64,000 nucleotides of DNA, taken from NCBI GenBank assembly GCA_001767455.1, contig MELC01000019.1:1-64000 (forward strand), read 5' to 3'. The stretch comes from Acidobacteria bacterium RIFCSPLOWO2_12_FULL_66_21. Its GTDB lineage: Bacteria > Acidobacteriota > Vicinamibacteria > Vicinamibacterales > 2-12-FULL-66-21. Positions 46,246 through 59,382 of this stretch are shown here, piece after piece (positions within the stretch are counted from its first letter, which is position 1; every line of letters begins with the position of its first letter). Below the pieces are notes generated by a model that made no database searches, had not been told where the DNA came from, and worked only from the letters and a program-made list of their open reading frames with translations. The position numbers and the translations under genes are program-made.

Positions 46246-46375
46246 ACGGCGGCAGAGAAGCCATGACGGCGTCCCTGGCCGGTTGACCGTCCTGTTGTCG
46301 CCGACTCGATTTGCGCGTAGGCTGGTCCATCTCGCGGGCTGATGGGACGCCTGGCGGCGGGGAGGAGAGGCTCTG

Positions 46376-47440
46376 ATGAAACGCCACGTTCTTGCGATTA
46401 GCGCGGCCGCGGCGGCCCTGGCGACGGCCGTGCTTCCGACGCGAGCGCAGCAGTCATCGATCCGGCTCAGGGATTTCGCGATGGCGGGCGGCCAGTACTA
46501 CCTCAGGGTCCCCGAGTTCGTCGCCGCCGCGAAGGCCACGTTCCTGAGAGATGGGGATCGGGTGATCGGTGTCGTCGGCGACGGTGTGACCAAGGCGTAT
46601 CCGGCAGCGGCCGTCACCTGGCACCACGGGGTGGAGGATCGCATTGGCAGGCTGCCCGTCTTCGTTACGTGGTGAAACCGCTGCAACACGGCCCTCGTGT
46701 TCAGGGCCGAAGTCGACGGCCGCGCGCTGATGTTCTTCCACACCAATATGCGCGGCATGAATATGACGTTCGCGGACCGCGAGACCGGTACGCGCTGGCA
46801 GCAGGAGACCGGCGAGGCGTTCGACGGCCGCCTCAAAGGCAAGCGGCTCGAGGTCCATCCGTTTCTGATCACGACCTGGAAGGCGTGGCGAGATCGCCAT
46901 CCAACCACGCTCGTGATGGCGCCGGTGCCTGGTCTCGAGGAGCTGTACGCGAACATGTGGCGCGAGATTCTCGGGCGGACCAGGGACCGTCCGGGCCCTC
47001 CCTCCGATCGGACGTTCCGTCCGGTCGATCCGCGTCTCCCGGCGTACGAGCCGATCGTGGGACTCGAGGCGGGGGGCGCACGTCGCGCGTATCCGCGGGC
47101 ACTGCTCGCGAGGGCACAGGTAGTCAACGACCGGCTTGGCGGCGAGCCGGTACTGCTCGTGTACATCCGGAGCAATGACACAGTGACCGTGTTTTCACGC
47201 GGCGTGTCCGGGCAGATCCTGACGTTCAAGCCGGGTCGGCGTGCTGGCCGCCTGGCCGATGTGGAGACGCGGTCGCAGTGGGACTCTTACGGAACGTGCC
47301 TGGAGGGGACGCTGCGCGGCAGCCAGTTGAAGGAGCTCACCGGCAGGCCGCAGTTCTGGTGGGGATGGGCGGCCTTCGGCGAGACAGACGTCTACTCGGT
47401 GCCGGGCCGCGGCGCGCGCCCGGGCACCGTCCACAGATAA
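46376..47440 (+). CDS. DUF3179 protein, candidate selenoprotein with in-frame TGA
   Basis: Two open segments in the same frame, 46376-46675 and 46676-47440, are separated only by the TGA at 46673-46675. Read through, they give a 354-residue exported protein: signal peptide (HVLAISAAAAALATAVLPTRAQ), then a complete DUF3179 domain. DUF3179 proteins normally carry VTYCPLCGTA; here the sequence is VTW-[TGA]-NRCNTA, so TGA occupies the first Cys of the CxxC motif (residue 100, partner Cys103). Everything after it is intact (DGRALMFF, MTFADRETGTRWQQETGEAFDG). A hairpin follows at 46689-46709. GGGGAGGAGAGG precedes the ATG. The alternative is a nonsense mutation of a Cys codon. Confidence 0.7.
46689..46709 (+). 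promoter_or_regulatory. Bacterial SECIS-like hairpin downstream of in-frame TGA
   Basis: CGGCCCT (46689-46695) pairs perfectly with AGGGCCG (46703-46709) around the 7-base loop CGTGTTC. The loop starts 20 bases after the TGA, inside the 16-37 base range used to define bacterial SECIS elements, and has a G among its first two bases. A 7-bp stem can occur by chance in GC-rich DNA, so the support lies in its position. Confidence 0.5.
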
Positions 47441-48071: not shown

Positions 48072-49553
48072 ATGTTGCCCAGTGTCACACCTGCCTTCCA
48101 GCTCACCGACCCGGCCTTGCTGCGCCAGCAGTGCTACATCGACGGCAAGTGGGTCGATGCCGACGACAAGAGGACCATTGCGGTGCGCAACCCTGCCGAC
48201 GGGCAGCAGATCGGGACGGTGCCGAACCTGGGCGCCGTCGAGACCAGACGCGCGATCGAAGCGGCGAACGCGGCCTGGCCGGCGTGGCGCGTCAGGACCG
48301 CCAAGGAGCGCGCGGCGATCCTGCGCAGATGGTTCGACCTGATGATGGCGAATCAGGAAGACCTCGCGGTGCTGATGACGACCGAGCAGGGCAAGCCGCT
48401 CACCGAGTCGCGCGGCGAGATCGCGTATGGCGCCTCGTTCGTCGAATGGTTCGCCGAGGAAGGCAAGCGCATCTACGGCGACACCATCCCGCCGCACCAG
48501 AGCGACAGGCGCATCGTCGTCATCAAGCAGCCGATCGGCGTGTGCGCGGCGGTCACGCCGTGGAATTTTCCCAACGCGATGATCACGCGCAAGGCGGGTC
48601 CGGCGCTGGCGGCCGGCTGCACGATGATCGTCAAGCCGGCGAGCTCTACGCCCTACTCGGCGCTCGCGCTGTGCGAGCTGGGGGAGCGCGCGGGAATTCC
48701 CAGGGGCGTGCTCAACGTCGTGACCGGGGCGTCGGGCCCCATCGGCGGGGAGCTCACCACCAACCCGATCGTGCGCAAGTTCACGTTCACCGGTTCGACC
48801 GAGGTCGGCAAGCAGCTGATGGCGCAGTGCGCGGGTACCGTCAAGAAAGTGTCGCTCGAACTCGGCGGCAACGCGCCATTCATCGTGTTTGACGATGCCG
48901 ATCTCGAGGCCGCGCTCGACGGCGCGATGGCATCGAAGTTCCGCAACATGGGCCAGACCTGCGTCTGCGCCAACCGGATCTTCGTGCAGGAAGGCGTCTA
49001 CGACGAGTTCGCGCGGAAGCTCGGCGCACGAGTCGCCGCGATGAAGGTCGGGGACGGTCTCGAGGACGGCGTGGTGCAGGGGCCGCTCATCGACATGGCG
49101 GCCGTGGAGAAGGTCGAAGAGCATATCGCCGATGCCGTCGGGAAGGGCGCGCGTATCGTGACCGGTGGCAAGCGCCACGCCAAAGGGGGGACATTCTTCG
49201 AGCCGACTGTGCTGGTTGATGTCACAGCCCGCATGAAGTTGGCTCATGAGGAGACGTTCGGCCCGGTGGCGCCGTTGTTCCGGTTCAGGACGGAACAGGA
49301 GCTGATCGATCTCGCCAACGATACCGAGTACGGTCTCGCGTCGTATTTCTACAGCCGCGACATCGGGCGAATCTGGCGTGTGGCCGAGGCGCTCGAGTAC
49401 GGCATCGTCGGTATCAACGTCGGCGTGATTTCCACCGAGATCGCGCCGTTCGGCGGTGTCAAGGAGTCAGGAATCGGCCGCGAGGGCTCCAAGTACGGGA
49501 TAGAAGAGTTCCTCGAAATCAAGTACGTCTGCATCGGCGGCATCGACAAGTGA
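48072..49553 (+). CDS. gabD: NAD(P)-dependent succinate-semialdehyde dehydrogenase family protein
   Basis: A 493-residue aldehyde dehydrogenase of the GabD type. Hallmarks are QCYIDGKWVDADDKRTIAVRNPADG, TTEQGKPLTESRGEI, the cofactor segment VTPWNFPNAMITRKAGPALAAGC, the catalytic Glu in LELGGNAPF, the nucleophile Cys297 in GQTCVCANR (a CxC arrangement typical of SSADH) and FGPVAPLFRF. It oxidises succinate semialdehyde or a related semialdehyde. The ATG at 48072 gives the family N-terminus. It is a single gene, followed directly by a fragment of a spermidine-synthase-like gene. Confidence 0.93.
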   Translation: MLPSVTPAFQLTDPALLRQQCYIDGKWVDADDKRTIAVRNPADGQQIGTVPNLGAVETRRAIEAANAAWPAWRVRTAKERAAILRRWFDLMMANQEDLAVLMTTEQGKPLTESRGEIAYGASFVEWFAEEGKRIYGDTIPPHQSDRRIVVIKQPIGVCAAVTPWNFPNAMITRKAGPALAAGCTMIVKPASSTPYSALALCELGERAGIPRGVLNVVTGASGPIGGELTTNPIVRKFTFTGSTEVGKQLMAQCAGTVKKVSLELGGNAPFIVFDDADLEAALDGAMASKFRNMGQTCVCANRIFVQEGVYDEFARKLGARVAAMKVGDGLEDGVVQGPLIDMAAVEKVEEHIADAVGKGARIVTGGKRHAKGGTFFEPTVLVDVTARMKLAHEETFGPVAPLFRFRTEQELIDLANDTEYGLASYFYSRDIGRIWRVAEALEYGIVGINVGVISTEIAPFGGVKESGIGREGSKYGIEEFLEIKYVCIGGIDK

Positions 49554-49561
49554 TCCAGGTT

Positions 49562-49656
49562 CGTCAGCACGAAGTGTCTCGCGTCGTCGAGTTCAACGTG
49601 CGTCTTCGGATTGCGGACGACGTCGAAATTGTGCTCGCTGAAGTAGGCGGAGACCA
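49562..49656 (-). pseudogene. 95-bp fragment duplicated from a spermidine-synthase-like gene
   Basis: On the minus strand this encodes AYFSEHNFDVVRNPKTHVELDDARHF, nearly identical to TYFSEHNFDVVRNPKTHVVLDDARHF in the intact gene at 51790-54207 (bases 52414-52508). The DNA match is roughly 85-90 percent by eye over 95 bases and stops abruptly on both sides. No other part of that gene is seen here, so it is an isolated fragment, in the same orientation as its source, about 2.9 kb away. Confidence 0.78.
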
Positions 49657-49695
49657 GCTCTGCCAGCCTTTTAAGCATGCGTTCGCACGGATGTG

Positions 49696-51789: not shown

Positions 51790-54207
51790 TCAGTATCTGC
51801 CTTGCTGCCTCAGAATGGCCGCGCGCAGCATCTGCTTCATCTCGTCGGAGCCGACGAACAGGTCGTCGGGATACTGGCTGTAGCGCAGCATGTCGGCGTA
51901 GATCGCCTCGCTTTCATACAGGTTGAAGCCCATGCCGGCGAGGTACTGCAGGCGCAGGTTGCGATCGCGGTTGATGATCGCGTCTTTCAGCCACGGGCCA
52001 AGATCGCTCTTCGTGCCGGCGTAGTTCGAGAAGAGATCGATCGCCGAGTTCATGCCGATCTGGGACAGCGAGTGGGCCACAAGCGCCATGTCCGGCTCAT
52101 CGAGGTGGCGCTGCACCGCCGCGACGTCGATGCGCGTCGGCTCGACCTGTCCGAGCAGCACGAGATCGTACCCGGCGCCGTTGTTGGTGTTCCCCCAGAC
52201 GACGCCGTTCGGGAAGGCCTCGAGGAACGTCCCGATCTCGCTCTTCACGGCCTCGGTGTTGCTCTCGTACAACTGCACGAACAAGGTGACCGCCCCGCCC
52301 GGGTTCAGGTGCTGCTTGACGGTCTCGAAGAACTCGCGCGTGTAGAGCATCGCGGCCCCTTTCACCCACGGATCGAGCGGATCCGAGGTGATCGCGTCGA
52401 ACTTCTGATCGGTCGTCAGCAGGAAGTGCCGTGCATCGTCGAGGACCACGTGCGTCTTCGGGTTGCGGACGACGTCGAAGTTGTGCTCGCTGAAGTAGGT
52501 CGAGACCACGCGCGGCACGAGCGGCTCGATCTCGGCAATCGTCAGGCTCTTGACATTGGGATCCACCGACACCGCGCCTGCGGTGACGCCCGCGCCGCAG
52601 CCGATGACGAGCACGGAGGTGGGATTTTTCGGAATCAACGTCGTCAGGTGCCCGAGCATCCGCTGGAGGCGCATGTCCTGCGGCTCGCTGGAGGCCTGCA
52701 CCTTGCCGGCGTTGTGATAGTTCAGGACGCCGTTGGACAGCCGCGAGACGGCCACCGACGCGTTCCATCCCTCACCCATGTAGATGATGTCGGCGTCGCC
52801 GAGGCGCGTGGCCGTGTAGCGGCCGTACGCGACGAAGATGCCCGGCACGGGCTGGATCGTGCGCGCGAGCAGGACCGCGCCGCCCATGGCGGCGGCCAGC
52901 AGCAGCGTGCCCGCGAGCTGAAGGCGGCCCTTCTTCGCCTCCGCATCCGCGCCGGCGGACTCCAGCATCACCAGCGCGGAGATGGCGGAAATGACGACGA
53001 GGATCTGCTGCGCGCGCTGGCTCCCGAGCCACACCACCAGGAACATGCTGGCCGCGACAGATCCGACGATCGCCCCGAGCGTGTTGGCGGCATAGACGCG
53101 CCCGACCAGGCGGGCCGGATCCTTGCCGCCGGTGGCGACCGACGCCAGCGCCAGGGGAAAACTCGCGCCCCAGAGCATCGCGCCGGGCAGCACGACCCAG
53201 ATGCAGCGCACGAGATCGAGCTGCAAGTTGAACCACGGGCTGCTCGAGATCGACGGGTTGATCGGCCAGTACGGCAGCGACTGCGTGAGCATGTAGGCCG
53301 ACCACGCAATCGCGGCACACAGCAGCATCTGGCACCAGCCGAGCGCCAGCCGCGGCCGCGCCATCCGTCCCGCCAGCGACGAGCCGACGCTGCTCCCGAT
53401 GCCGAGGCCGAACAGGAACACCGCGAGAATCAGCGAAAAAGTGTAGACCGTGCCGCCGAACAGCAGCGAGAGCAGGCGCGTCCAGATGACTTCCGCGCCG
53501 AGCGCGGTCATGCCGGACAGGCCGATAGCGACGTACACCGCCCAGGCCCCACCCGACGCCTCGACTTTTCCGCGGGTCTCGACGACGGGCGTGTAGTCAG
53601 TACTTTTGGCCAGCAGCAGCGCCAGGACCGCGACAGTGGCGTTCAGCGCGACGGCCGTGTAGGTCGCCGTCGCGGCGTCGTGGACGCGCAGCAGGTAGAA
53701 ACCGGCGAGCAGGCAGCCGAGCACGCCGCCGCCGATGTTGCCGCCATAGAAAAAGCCCAGCCACGAGACCCCTTCCGGCGTGGATTCGACCCACCGTGAG
53801 ATCGCCGGGAGCGTGGCGCCCATCATGAGCGTCGGCGGAAGCAGGCAGATGCTGGCCGCGAGGCCGCGCATGAGGATGCCCGTGACCCCGGAGCCCGCCC
53901 ATGCGAAGTACGCGCCACCGATGAGCGGCATCCCCCAGAGCAGCAGCAGGCCGATGATGCCGATGCCGATCTCGAGAAACGCGTAGACCCGCAGCGGATG
54001 CCGGCTGACACTGATCGTGCGCGCCAGCAGGAGGCTGCCGAGGCACATCCCCCCCATGAACGTGCCGAGCAGCACGCCGAGCGATACGGCCGACGAGCCG
54101 ATCACCAGCTGCAGGAGCTGGAACCACACGATTTCGTAGATGAGCGCAGCGCAGCCACTGCCGACAAAGAGCAGCAACAGCGCCGGCAGGAACCGGCGCG
54201 CGGACAT
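51790..54207 (-). CDS. Multi-pass membrane protein with spermidine-synthase-like domain
   Basis: An 805-residue protein with about a dozen transmembrane segments (LPALLLLFVGSGCAALIYEIVWFQLLQLVIGSSAVSLG at the start, a second bundle at about residues 220-440), then a methyltransferase-like domain: VLVIGCGAGVTAGAVSVDPNVKSLTIAEIEPLV, YFSEHNFDVVRNPKTHVVLDDARHFL and FDAITSDPLDPWVKGAAMLYTREFFETVKQHLNPGG. It is related to 17050-20190 but lacks TPRs. ATG 54207 follows GAGGAGAGG. The long frame continuing upstream is antiparallel to the S9 peptidase gene and not real. Confidence 0.86.
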   Translation of the reverse strand: MSARRFLPALLLLFVGSGCAALIYEIVWFQLLQLVIGSSAVSLGVLLGTFMGGMCLGSLLLARTISVSRHPLRVYAFLEIGIGIIGLLLLWGMPLIGGAYFAWAGSGVTGILMRGLAASICLLPPTLMMGATLPAISRWVESTPEGVSWLGFFYGGNIGGGVLGCLLAGFYLLRVHDAATATYTAVALNATVAVLALLLAKSTDYTPVVETRGKVEASGGAWAVYVAIGLSGMTALGAEVIWTRLLSLLFGGTVYTFSLILAVFLFGLGIGSSVGSSLAGRMARPRLALGWCQMLLCAAIAWSAYMLTQSLPYWPINPSISSSPWFNLQLDLVRCIWVVLPGAMLWGASFPLALASVATGGKDPARLVGRVYAANTLGAIVGSVAASMFLVVWLGSQRAQQILVVISAISALVMLESAGADAEAKKGRLQLAGTLLLAAAMGGAVLLARTIQPVPGIFVAYGRYTATRLGDADIIYMGEGWNASVAVSRLSNGVLNYHNAGKVQASSEPQDMRLQRMLGHLTTLIPKNPTSVLVIGCGAGVTAGAVSVDPNVKSLTIAEIEPLVPRVVSTYFSEHNFDVVRNPKTHVVLDDARHFLLTTDQKFDAITSDPLDPWVKGAAMLYTREFFETVKQHLNPGGAVTLFVQLYESNTEAVKSEIGTFLEAFPNGVVWGNTNNGAGYDLVLLGQVEPTRIDVAAVQRHLDEPDMALVAHSLSQIGMNSAIDLFSNYAGTKSDLGPWLKDAIINRDRNLRLQYLAGMGFNLYESEAIYADMLRYSQYPDDLFVGSDEMKQMLRAAILRQQGRY

Positions 54208-54267
54208 CGGCGATACCTCTCCTCGGAAAACGACTGCGAATCGTATCACGCCCACGGCAGCCCTGAA

Positions 54268-54460
54268 GGGCTGCGCAACAGGTCGAGAATGAAGCCGGTG
54301 TCGAGAATGAAGCCGGGTCGCGAATGGAGGCCGGGTCGCGAATGGAGGCCGGTGTCGCGAATAGAGGCCGGGGTTGCGAATAGAGGCCGGGGTTGCGAAT
54401 AGAGGCCGGGGTTGCGAATAGAGGCCGGGGTTGCGAATGGAGGCCGGGGTTGCGCAGCCC
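54268..54460. repeat. Inverted repeats flanking the tandem array
   Basis: GGGCTGCGCAA (54268-54278) and TTGCGCAGCCC (54450-54460) are perfect 11-base inverted repeats that bracket the tandem units. The left one lies in a local palindrome (CAGCCCTGAAGGGCTG). The arrangement resembles a REP/BIME-like or miniature mobile element that has expanded internally. Confidence 0.65.
54279..54449. repeat. Tandem array of 18-19-bp units
   Basis: About nine head-to-tail units of the form GGGGTTGCGAATAGAGGCC. Four right-hand units are 19 bases and nearly identical (54369-54387, 54388-54406, 54407-54425, 54426-54444); left-hand units are 18 bases and diverged (GGTGTCGAGAATGAAGCC, then GGGTCGCGAATGGAGGCC twice). 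The gradient of divergence suggests recent expansion at the right end. It lies between the divergent membrane-protein and S9 peptidase genes. Confidence 0.85.
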
Positions 54461-54651
54461 TTTAGAGATGCCGCGACTTCAGGGCCGCCGAGTTGCGGCA
54501 AAACGATGGCAACCGGCGGCCGAGCTCCCGCGCGGCCGGTTCTGGCTCGACACCGTGCCGAGGGTCGTGTATCGTCTTGTCCCCGAAGGCCATTTCCATC
54601 CGCCAACCGCCGTAGCCGGCCCGAGTCGGGGCCTGCGTCATCGGAGGAATC

Positions 54652-57423
54652 ATGAACGTACGCGTAATCACCTCGCAGGGTGTCACCCGACGCCTGGTGC
54701 GGTTCGCCCCCGCCCTGCTGCTCGCTTTGCTCCCGCTGACGCTGACCGCTCAGCAACAGCCCGCCGCGCCGGGCGGCGCGAAGGCGTCCTGGGCTGACGA
54801 GATTCTCAAGACGGAGTCCTACGTGACGCCGCCGCCCGAAGTCGCCGACGCCGTGCTGATCCCGCGCTATCTGAACATCTCGCTCACCAACGCCAGCCCG
54901 GACAAGAAATGGTTCGTGGACGAAATCAGCGACGGGCCGGTCCTGATGAAGACCTTCTCCAAGCCGTTCCACGAGCTCGGAGGCGTGTTCATCGACTTCA
55001 AGGCGAACCGCGCGCGGGCGCTGACCGTCCGCAACAACATCGGCATTCAGATCATCTCGGCGGCCGACGGGACGAAGAAGGCGCTGCAGATTCCGGCGGG
55101 CGCGCGCGTGTCCAACGCCACGTGGTCCCCCGACGGGAAGGCGGTCGCCTACCTGGTGCACACCGAGGAGGCGACGCACATCTGGATGACGGACATCGCC
55201 GCGAACAAGCCGGTCCAGATCACGAAGACGCCGGTGCTGGCCACGCTCGTCTCGAGCTTCGAGTTCACGCAGGACGGCAGACAAATCACCGCCGTGCTCG
55301 CGCCCGATGCGCGCGCGCCGATGCCGCAGGCGCCCGCGGCGCCGGGCGGGCCCGTCGTCAAGATCGCGGATGCGGACAAGAACCGGCTGCGGACCTTCCC
55401 GAGCCTGATGACGACGCCGCACGAGAAGGCGCTGCTCGAGTGGCACGCGACCGGCCAGCTCGCGATGATCGACGTGCAGACGCGCACGGTCCGCAAGGTC
55501 GGGGCCCCGGCCATGATCCGGTCGCTCGACGCGTCGCCCGACGGGAAGTACGTGCGCGTGACGCGCATGGTCAAGCCCTTCTCGTATGACGTGCCGGTGA
55601 GCAACGTCGGATCGATCGAAGAAGTGTGGGATCTCGACGGCAAGGCGCTGGCGAAGCTGAACGAGCGCCCGATCAACCTCGGGGTGCAGGACGACACGCA
55701 GCCGCCCGATCCCACGGCCGCCCCCGGCGGCGGGCGCGGCGGCAATCAGAATCAGGCGGGACCGCGCGAGCTGGCGTGGCGCACCGACGGGCAGGGGCTC
55801 ACCTACCTCGAGCAGGAGCCGGCGCCCGCGGGTTCGGCGGAGGCTGCCGGCAGCGGACGCGCGGCGCGCGCCGGGCGCGGCGCCGGAACGGGCGACGAGG
55901 CGCAGGGCGGCGGCCGGGCCGCGCAGGGCCCGCCGCGCAAGGACCGCCTCGTGCAGTGGCTGCCGCCGTTCGACGCCGCCAGCAAGAAGGTGCTCTACGA
56001 GAACAACACCCGCATGTCGAATCACCGCTTCTCGCCGGACATGCAGATGCTGTTCGTGACGGAGCGGGCCGGACAGAACACCGTCGAGTACGCGGTCGCG
56101 CTCAGCGAGCCGGCGAAGCGCTCCACGCTCGCGCGCTACCGCGCCGACGATCCGGCCGCGAACCCGGGCACGCTCGCGATGGTGCGCGGCGGTGGCGGCG
56201 GCGGTGGACGCGGCGGCGGCGCGCCGGGCGGCGGACGCGGCGCCGCCGGCGGCGCCGGCGGCGGCATCGTGCTGCTGTCGGCCGACAAGTCGAGCGTCTT
56301 CTACCAGGGGACGCAGTACGACAAGAACCCCGAGCAGGTCGGGCCGAAGACGTTCATCGACAAGGTCGCCATCGCGAGCGGCGAAAAGCGCCGGCTCTAC
56401 GAAAGCGACAACACCAATGTCTTCGAGCGCGTCACGACGATCGTCGACGCCGATGCCGGCAGGTTCATCGTCGCGCGCGAGAGCCCGACGGAGGTCGCGC
56501 AGCAGTTCCTGCTCGACGGCACGCGGCGCACGCAGCTCACCCAGAACAAGGACTACACGCCGGACCTGACCCGGGCGGTGAAGAGGCAGTTCTTCGTCGA
56601 GCGGCCGGACGGCTTCAAGTTCAAGGTGAAGGTGACGCTCCCGCCCGACTACAAGGACGGGACGCGCCTGCCGGCGCTCTTCTGGTTCTACCCGCGCGAG
56701 TTCACGACCCAGGACGAGTACGATCGGCCGGAGCGCACGTTCAACAGGAACACGTTCACGAACTTCGGCACCCGCTCGATGCAGTTCTTCGTGCGGCTCG
56801 GCTACGCGGTGATCGAGCCCGACGCGCCGATTGTCGGCCCGCAGGGGCAGATGAACAACAACTACGTGAACGACCTCCGCAACGACCTGGCGGCGACGAT
56901 CGACGAGCTGGACCGGCGCGCGCTGGTCGATCGGCAGCGGCTCGCCATCGGCGGGCACAGCTACGGCGCGTTCTCGACGGTGAACGCGATGGTGCACACG
57001 CCGTTCTTCAAGGCGGGCATCGCGGGTGACGGCGCGTACAACCGCACGCTGACCCCGATCGGATTCCAGAGCGAGCGCCGCGATCTCTGGGAGGCGCGCG
57101 ACGTCTATCTCTCGATGTCCCCGTTCCTCTACGCGAACAACCTGACGGGATCGCTGCTGATGTATCACGCGCTCGCGGACCAGAACGTGGGCACCGACCC
57201 GACCAACTCGATCCGGCTGTACCACGCGCTGAACGGCCTCGGAAAGACGACGGCGCTCTACATGTATCCGTACGAGGACCACGGGCCGGTCGCGAAGGAA
57301 ACGCTGCTGGATCTGTGGGCGCGGTGGGCCGCCTGGCTCGACAAATACGTCAAGAACCCGCAGAAGCCCGACAAGACAGAGAAGAAGATCACGACGGAAG
57401 GGGTCAATCCGGGCGTACAATAA
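54652..57423 (+). CDS. Exported S9-family (prolyl oligopeptidase type) peptidase with Gly-rich inserts
   Basis: A 923-residue serine peptidase. Signal peptide (FAPALLLALLPLTLTAQQ), beta-propeller with TolB-like blades (VSNATWSPDGKAVAYLVHTEEATHIWMTDI, RSLDASPDGKYVRVTR), and a C-terminal alpha/beta hydrolase. The nucleophile is Ser770 (GGHSYGAFSTV), acid in ALADQNVGTDP, His in YEDHGPVAKE. Two low-complexity inserts, near residues 360-430 (GGGRGGNQNQAGP and Ala/Gly/Arg-rich) and 510-540 (RGGGGGGGRGGGAPGGG), break the propeller and are probably surface loops. CGGAGGAATC precedes the ATG. It probably digests peptides in the periplasm. Confidence 0.9.
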   Translation: MNVRVITSQGVTRRLVRFAPALLLALLPLTLTAQQQPAAPGGAKASWADEILKTESYVTPPPEVADAVLIPRYLNISLTNASPDKKWFVDEISDGPVLMKTFSKPFHELGGVFIDFKANRARALTVRNNIGIQIISAADGTKKALQIPAGARVSNATWSPDGKAVAYLVHTEEATHIWMTDIAANKPVQITKTPVLATLVSSFEFTQDGRQITAVLAPDARAPMPQAPAAPGGPVVKIADADKNRLRTFPSLMTTPHEKALLEWHATGQLAMIDVQTRTVRKVGAPAMIRSLDASPDGKYVRVTRMVKPFSYDVPVSNVGSIEEVWDLDGKALAKLNERPINLGVQDDTQPPDPTAAPGGGRGGNQNQAGPRELAWRTDGQGLTYLEQEPAPAGSAEAAGSGRAARAGRGAGTGDEAQGGGRAAQGPPRKDRLVQWLPPFDAASKKVLYENNTRMSNHRFSPDMQMLFVTERAGQNTVEYAVALSEPAKRSTLARYRADDPAANPGTLAMVRGGGGGGGRGGGAPGGGRGAAGGAGGGIVLLSADKSSVFYQGTQYDKNPEQVGPKTFIDKVAIASGEKRRLYESDNTNVFERVTTIVDADAGRFIVARESPTEVAQQFLLDGTRRTQLTQNKDYTPDLTRAVKRQFFVERPDGFKFKVKVTLPPDYKDGTRLPALFWFYPREFTTQDEYDRPERTFNRNTFTNFGTRSMQFFVRLGYAVIEPDAPIVGPQGQMNNNYVNDLRNDLAATIDELDRRALVDRQRLAIGGHSYGAFSTVNAMVHTPFFKAGIAGDGAYNRTLTPIGFQSERRDLWEARDVYLSMSPFLYANNLTGSLLMYHALADQNVGTDPTNSIRLYHALNGLGKTTALYMYPYEDHGPVAKETLLDLWARWAAWLDKYVKNPQKPDKTEKKITTEGVNPGVQ

Positions 57424-57543
57424 TTGCGGATTGCTCAGTGCGGATTGCGGATCGTATTCGCGATTGAAGGTTGCGGATTGGGCTGACCAATCCCCAATCG
57501 CCAATTCGCAATACGATCGGCAATCCGCAATCCGCAGTCGGCA
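57424..57543. repeat. Inverted/tandem repeat rich in ATTGCGGATTG units
   Basis: TGCGGATTGCGG (57439-57450) is perfectly complementary to CCGCAATCCGCA (57525-57536), and ATCGTATT (57451-57458) to AATACGAT (57510-57517), giving a long imperfect hairpin. Further ATTGCGG/CCGCAAT copies are scattered inside. It occupies the whole gap between the S9 gene and the VWFA gene and could act as a transcript end or be an inserted repeat. Confidence 0.75.
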
Positions 57544-59382
57544 ATGCCTATGCATCAGCGCGTCCATGCCCTTGTCTTCGCGCTGACGGTCTGCGCCGCC
57601 GCTCTACCCTGGGCGGCGGCGGTCCAAAACCCTCCCCCTACGCCCCCACCCTCGCAGCAGAAGCCCCCCGTGTTCCGCGGCGGCGCCAACCTCGTCCGCG
57701 TGGACGTGACGGTCACCAGCCCCGGCGGCGAGCCGGTCGCCAACCTGACCCAGGAGGACTTCGTCGTCACCGAGGACGGCCAGCCGCAGACCGTCGAGTC
57801 CTTCGAGTTCGTGCGCGCGACCGGACAGCCCGCCGACGAGCGCTCGCTCGACATCCGCTCGCGGGAGCACGCCGCCTCCGAGGCCAGCCGCGAGGACGTG
57901 CGGCTCTTCCTGATTTTCTGGGACGAATACCACATCGGCGAGTTCATCCCGGCCGTCAAGGGACGCGAGGTGCTGGAGAAATTCGTCCGCACGGCGTTCG
58001 CGCCGACCGATCTCGTCGGCATCATGGACCAGCTCACGACGGTCGATTCGATCCGGTTCACGCGCGACTGGAACACGCTCGCCGAGCATGTGCACAAGCT
58101 CAAGGGACGGATGGGCGTGCTCGTGCCGCCGCGGAGCCCGGTTGAAGAGGCGCACCTCCGGAATCCGCGCGATATCGGGCGGCTGCGGAACGAGGTCACG
58201 ATGACCGCGCTCAATGCGGCCGCGGCGTTTCTCGGAAACTTCCGCGAGGGGCGCAAGGCGCTTCTCTTCGTGAGCCAGGGCATCCCGACGTTCGGGCGCT
58301 CCGGCGAGAGCTCGATGTTCAACGAGATCGTGCAGACGGCCAACACGAACAACACGGCCATCTACACGCTCGACCCCGCATCGCAGGTGGGCCGGACGCC
58401 CGACTCGCTCATGTCCCTGGCGTACTCCACCGGCGGCAAGCCGTTCGTCGGCACGAACGCGCCCGGGCCGATGCTCAACCAGATGGTGCGCGACGCGAGC
58501 GCGTTCTACCTGCTGGGCTATGCCTCCAGTCGCAATCCGATGGACGGAAAGTTCCATCGGATCAAAGTGCATCTGAAAGAGCGATCGAACTACGAGGTCC
58601 GCGCGCGCAGCGGCTACTTCGCGCCGCTCGCGGGGTCAATCGAGCGGGCGCGCTCCGAGGCCGCCGCGGCCGAGCTGCCGGCCGATGCCGAGCGCGCGCT
58701 CGGAGAACTGTCGGGGGTGTCCCGGCTGGAGCGATCGATCGATTTGTGGATGGGCACCTCGCTCGGGCCGGACGGCAAGACGCGATTCACGGTCGCCTGG
58801 ACTCCGCGCCCCGCCCAGCCTCCGCGCGAGCGCGAGGCAGCGGCCAGCCTGACCCTCACGGCAACGAGCCCTCAGGGCGAGCCGTACTTCGCGGTCACCG
58901 ATGCCACGGCGCACGAGCTGTCGTTCGACGTGCCGCCCGGCGAGATGGTGCTGAAGACGCTCGTGCACAACGCGAAGGGAGACGAGATCGACGGTGAGCT
59001 GCGCCACGTGAAGGTGCCGGCATTCGCCGCCGATCGCCTCGGGATCGGCTCACCGGCCGTCTTCGTCGCGCGCAGCGCGCTCGACGCGCGCAACATCGCC
59101 GCGGGCCACGGCCCCGCGCCCGTCGCCGTGCGGGAGTTCGACCGCACCGATCGCCTGTTCATCCGGTTCCCGGTGTACGGGGCGTCCGTGGCGCCCGTGA
59201 TCCGGCTGCTCAACCGGCAGGCGAAGGAGCTGCGCAGGCTCGAGGCGGCGCCGCTCGGCGATGGGCGCTATCAGATCGATCTGCTGCTCACGACGATCGC
59301 CAAGGCCGATTACCTGATCGAGATTGAAGTGCGCGAGGGAGAGAAGTCCGAGAAGACGATCCTGCCGATCCGGATTCGATAG
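57544..59382 (+). CDS. Secreted acidobacterial VWFA-related domain protein, copy 2
   Basis: A 612-residue paralogue of 49696-50949 with a longer C-terminal part. Signal peptide (ALVFALTVCAAALPWAAA), Pro-rich linker, then FRGGANLVRVDVTVTSPGGEPVANLTQEDFVVTEDGQPQTVESFEF, the domain that defines the acidobacterial VWFA-related family, followed by the A-domain-like fold (LFLIFWDEYH, LVGIMDQLTTVDSIRFTR, GRKALLFVSQGIPTFG) and RDASAFYLLGYAS. Residues from about 390 on form an unrecognised beta-rich region. ATG 57544 or 57550 is the start. It converges on the M14 peptidase gene. Confidence 0.87.
   Translation: MPMHQRVHALVFALTVCAAALPWAAAVQNPPPTPPPSQQKPPVFRGGANLVRVDVTVTSPGGEPVANLTQEDFVVTEDGQPQTVESFEFVRATGQPADERSLDIRSREHAASEASREDVRLFLIFWDEYHIGEFIPAVKGREVLEKFVRTAFAPTDLVGIMDQLTTVDSIRFTRDWNTLAEHVHKLKGRMGVLVPPRSPVEEAHLRNPRDIGRLRNEVTMTALNAAAAFLGNFREGRKALLFVSQGIPTFGRSGESSMFNEIVQTANTNNTAIYTLDPASQVGRTPDSLMSLAYSTGGKPFVGTNAPGPMLNQMVRDASAFYLLGYASSRNPMDGKFHRIKVHLKERSNYEVRARSGYFAPLAGSIERARSEAAAAELPADAERALGELSGVSRLERSIDLWMGTSLGPDGKTRFTVAWTPRPAQPPREREAAASLTLTATSPQGEPYFAVTDATAHELSFDVPPGEMVLKTLVHNAKGDEIDGELRHVKVPAFAADRLGIGSPAVFVARSALDARNIAAGHGPAPVAVREFDRTDRLFIRFPVYGASVAPVIRLLNRQAKELRRLEAAPLGDGRYQIDLLLTTIAKADYLIEIEVREGEKSEKTILPIRIR

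Follow-up and report, generated by a model that had tools for sequence, protein, structure and literature searches.

An in-frame TGA with a SECIS-like hairpin in an acidobacterial DUF3179 gene: a divergent member of a known selenoprotein family

The DUF3179 gene, its internal TGA and the Sec-decoding genes

The window (the whole stretch analysed, 64,000 nucleotides of contig MELC01000019.1 from an Acidobacteria bacterium) carries a DUF3179 gene at 46376..47440 on the plus strand, coding for 354 aa if residue 100 is counted as selenocysteine (Sec). All features of this gene described below lie on the same strand. Its frame contains a single in-frame TGA (codon 100, 46673-46675) and is then open to the TAA stop. 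The gene is otherwise intact, as the initial annotation had claimed: the read-through product matches PF11376 over residues 45-335 with 206.9 bits (cut-off 27, E 6e-61). By eye, the ATG is preceded by a purine-rich, ribosome-binding-like sequence, GGGAGGAGAG (46360..46369), and residues about 1-24 look like an N-terminal signal peptide. Only one DUF3179 copy was found in the window genome. Mechanical ORF calling of this region returns two fragments, with an ORF running from GTG 46697 to 47440, and ordinary annotation would split the gene or label it a pseudogene.

The TGA is embedded in VTW-U-NRC-NTA (where U stands for Sec) and Cys-type relatives carry T(W/Y/F)-C-PLC at this site. Read as Sec, a reading that draws on TGA/Cys pairs in this column and on dN/dS, the codon would provide U100 of a UxxC motif. 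The second residue of the motif, Cys103 (TGC, 46682..46684), was assigned by translation and alignment and is a possible resolving thiol. Just downstream of the TGA lies a SECIS-like hairpin, CGGCCCT-[CGTGTTC]-AGGGCCG (46689..46709), composed of a 5′ stem (46689-46695), a loop (46696-46702) and a 3′ stem (46703-46709). The neighbouring genes encode SMP-30-like, PQQ propeller, DUF5916, methyltransferase and aldehyde dehydrogenase proteins. None of these had a match near the DUF3179 genes of ten relatives, for which up to about 6 kb of flanking DNA on each side was compared, so that the operon context gives no functional clue.

The sel genes, which the initial annotation had named as a check of its reading, are present in the genome: tRNA-Sec (59.5 bits, anticodon TCA), selA, selB and selD were all found. 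The selD gene (L018 1468-2529) itself contains one TGA, in a CAGU motif, and is thus a selenoprotein gene. Since Sec in SelD at the CAGU motif is well known, this gene serves as an internal positive control.

Coding constraint and hairpin conservation around the TGA

The nearest relative, L023, has 68% protein identity to the window gene and keeps the TGA. Between these two genes, dN is 0.24 before the TGA and 0.23 after it, and dS 1.1 and 1.2, respectively, giving a dN/dS of about 0.21 before and about 0.19 after. Pairwise comparison also revealed an identical 44-nt block (46667..46710) which spans both the TGA and the hairpin; the two genes are 71% identical overall, and the longest identical run after this block is 14 nt. 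The window gene belongs to a subfamily with UNRC or USYC at the site, and all 8 members found carry the TGA. A 26-nt stretch that begins at the Cys103 codon and extends as far as the hairpin's 3′ arm is invariant in these 8 members, and the next base differs in L053 only, where a G-C pair becomes G-U.

A Cys-type gene in which a recent nonsense mutation had turned TGC or TGT into TGA, or which carried a sequencing error, would show a lone in-frame TGA at the Cys column and two fragments in ORF calling, but this is extremely improbable here, given the same TGA throughout the subfamily and in 50 distinct sequences, the dN/dS of about 0.2 downstream, the conserved 44-nt block and a hairpin tied to the TGA. 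Alternatively, the TGA could be a real stop and the gene could be made as two pieces with a restart at GTG 46697, as the ORF beginning there might suggest. This is very unlikely. With such a restart, the break would fall in the middle of the first beta domain (strand 93-100 precedes the GTG), relatives have Cys at the site in one unbroken chain, and the GTG sits in the hairpin loop. We therefore retain Sec decoding: the genome has the sel genes, TGA and hairpin are conserved as a pair, and the coding constraint does not end at the TGA. On this sequence evidence, the window gene is almost certainly a functional DUF3179 selenoprotein gene.

The coordinates given for the hairpin in the initial annotation were confirmed: 7 bp, a loop starting 20 nt after the TGA and G at loop position 2. 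The window gene thus has a hairpin just downstream of the TGA and a G among the first two loop bases, as in the SECIS criterion. Judged from this gene by itself, the hairpin is of moderate rarity only: one as good or better arises in 2% of synonymous recodings. Energy folding of the window sequence by itself gave a z of -0.57; single-sequence folding is thus no evidence for it. Moreover, a 53-nt segment reaches its lowest folding energy with a competing hairpin at 46681-46704, which leaves two candidate hairpins as the target of SelB. This alternative overlaps the main hairpin and is the weaker of the two as a simple stem (-5.7 kcal/mol versus -13.0 kcal/mol for the main hairpin).

The strength of the hairpin as evidence comes from the relatives and not from the window gene alone. 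Among TGA rows, 49 of 50 scored above the hairpin threshold, compared with a mean of 14.4 and a maximum of 21 upon synonymous recoding (200 trials). Cys rows showed no excess (10/92, with 9.3 expected), so that the hairpin goes with the TGA. Recoding, alignment and the invariance in 8 members all bear on the hairpin assignment. Two main registers were observed. In register 1, seen in UPLC rows and in the window subfamily, the loop is CGTGT or CGTGTTC and starts 20 nt after the TGA. Its stem pairs covary around the fixed loop CGTGT: GC (10 rows) is replaced by TA (9 rows), CG by AT and AT by GC. In register 2, found in the UxLCHTGxVW subfamily, the loop is GGTCT and starts 15 nt after the TGA. 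Register 2 rows (L137-L142, L144-L148, L150, L151 and L153-L155) mostly have the stem (C/T)CACACC/GGTGTGG, with a 9-bp variant in L144, L145 and L148. GGTCT is also the apical loop of the Escherichia coli fdhF SECIS.

TGA-type and Cys-type genes and the distribution of selA

DUF3179 matches were obtained in 86/193 genomes in a class-wide search and in 128/396 genomes of a phylum sample. A scan of named genomes by alignment query gave 80 DUF3179 loci; unlike this alignment query, a single-protein query of the same contigs found nothing. Among distinct sequences, the codon at the Sec column is TGA in 50, TGC in 59 and TGT in 33, that is, a Cys codon in 92. The TGA of the window thus falls on the Cys column of the family, as first proposed, and TGA/Cys pairs at this column are numerous. 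TGA rows come from the phylum of the window and, as far as named records are concerned, from Acidobacteria (L052, L053 and L056), Chloroflexota (L064, L097, L120, L127 and L130) and a Tectomicrobia genome (L115). In the tree, the window gene belongs to a clade with strong support in which every row has TGA (UNRC, USYC), and the Sec label changes at least 8 times. Two TGAs in L024-L026 were considered as a UxxU motif, which was rejected because the second TGA is an ordinary terminal stop.

In the full-text literature searched, DUF3179 occurs in three papers only. A DUF3179 domain-containing protein with UxxC/T is nonetheless listed as a selenoprotein family in two reviews (PMC9312934, 2022; PMC13188914, 2026), which credit Zhang & Gladyshev 2007 (Olavius algarvensis symbiont). 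The initial annotation knew of no established Sec member of DUF3179 and proposed a new selenoprotein; its identification of a selenoprotein gene carrying a SECIS hairpin has strong support, but the family is not new. The window gene is a well-supported added member of a known selenoprotein family. It shares with the listed proteins the Pfam family (PF11376) and Sec at the first motif position, and differs from them in belonging to the divergent UNRC/USYC subfamily. Cys-type DUF3179 proteins (VTYCPLC; many bacteria, Thaumarchaeota) are collinear with it and have the same conserved residues, with Cys at the Sec column; unlike the window gene, they have a Cys codon there and show no hairpin excess.

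Acidobacteria are unmentioned in both reviews, and the phylum of the window gene is probably one that neither covers. The UPLA and UPLV forms are likewise absent from them, and four Sec-DUF3179 sequences with UPLV or UPLA (L143, L149, L152 and L157) fall outside the published UxxC/T. Apparently new are, therefore, the UNRC/USYC subfamily, the Sec members that lack the second Cys, and the wide spread of Sec-DUF3179 in this phylum. In the sampled phylum the Sec type is common, with TGA read at the site in at least 24 of the 128 matching genomes, which implies that many of these genes are probably misannotated. An uncharacterised family also gains a clear active-site residue.

In tested genomes of the phylum outside the class, selA was found in 20/20 of those with TGA-type DUF3179. 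In family f26, selA was absent from 10/10 genomes whose DUF3179 gene has no internal TGA (4 of these 10 loci were read at the site, all Cys-type), and present in both genomes with TGA at the site (G270 and G382). Comparison of the 20 selA-positive TGA genomes with the ten of f26 gave a Fisher p of 3e-8, kinship being uncorrected. Within the class, selA was present in 20/22 TGA genomes versus 150/193 genomes overall, and this high overall frequency makes co-occurrence within the class weak evidence. The two TGA genomes in which the selA search found none (G063 and G132, both drafts) do contain tRNA-Sec.

The four f26 Cys rows are nested within TGA rows in the tree, a placement consistent with reversion once the machinery had been lost. 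The f26 Cys-type genes L156, L158, L159 and L161 have decayed hairpins, in genomes without selA, and the f26 TGA-type genes L183 and L184 have intact hairpins, in genomes with selA. As judged from these sequences, Sec-to-Cys reversion following loss of the decoding machinery is the probable origin of the f26 Cys-type genes. The f26 split (selA and TGA versus neither) would then offer a clean example of such a return upon loss of decoding genes.

Structure model and possible role of residue 100

A sequence search for a solved structure gave none, and no NCBIfam model was found. The structure model (mean pLDDT 85.6, 79-row alignment) contains two beta domains. The first (residues 56-185, 46541..46930) carries Sec100 at the end of a strand (93-100), and the second (residues 222-336, 47039..47383) has no Cys/Sec at the equivalent site. 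Profile comparison of the two halves (E 3.5e-30) indicates an internal duplication, in agreement with the two homologous domains of the model. Compared with known structures (VIA), each half gave Z of 7-9, up to 9.2, and the 50 matches listed were all Rieske-type domains, whereas Foldseek with the same model returned weak E-values, above 0.01. In the model, each half aligns with Rieske domains, as in Rieske-fold ferredoxins and NirD. In contrast to these, the Rieske ligands CxH...CxxH are absent from the DUF3179 alignments. Rieske homology by profile was tried and rejected, since hhalign against the Rieske proteins of the same genome gave a probability of 1.2%. Because of the weak Foldseek E-values and the absence of a detected sequence relation, the resemblance in fold is no more than a lead. 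As a prediction of the model, a tandem pair of Rieske-like beta domains devoid of Rieske ligands is apparently also new.

In the proposed mechanism, UGA codon 100 would be decoded as Sec by tRNA-Sec and SelB during translation, SelB binding the coding-sequence hairpin about 20 nt downstream, and a full-length protein would be made. The signal-peptide-like N-terminus implies export. The product would comprise the two tandem Rieske-like beta domains, the first with the active site, where Sec100, with its partner Cys103 where present, may carry out a thiol/selenol redox or peroxide-reducing step on a substrate. Most likely, as far as the sequence indicates, the window protein is an exported Sec/Cys redox protein. 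This reading relies on the U/CxxC motif, and for Sec100 itself we moderately favour a redox role.

Conversely, Sec100 could be mainly a metal ligand or a single nucleophile and not half of a UxxC pair. Across the aligned rows, position 100 holds Sec or Cys without exception. Position 103 varies, with A or V in 4/50 Sec rows (Cys in the other 46) and T in 4/92 Cys rows, so that a classical dithiol may not be the right reading for the whole family; the resemblance to Rieske metal domains points the same way. However, most rows have Cys at position 103, the window gene among them, and with the Rieske ligands missing and the profile comparison empty we consider this alternative possible but unlikely. 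A more speculative and rather doubtful proposal is that DUF3179 has a tandem Rieske fold but no iron-sulfur cluster, that its Sec/Cys active site lies at another turn of domain one, and that Sec is partnerless in some members (UPLA, UPLV). If true, the partnerless Sec would give exported proteins a selenol site of a new type.

Two further observations concern the window outside the DUF3179 gene. A short minus-strand ORF (49349-49678) is a near-repeat of the YFSEHNFDVVRNPKTHV-LDDARHF stretch of a larger gene (51790-57567 frame), and from its sequence is read as a partial duplicate of this stretch, a few kb away. At about 54200-54500, ATPASIRNPGLYS-like repeats follow one another in the long minus-strand frame; they probably represent a non-coding tandem repeat translated as if it were protein.
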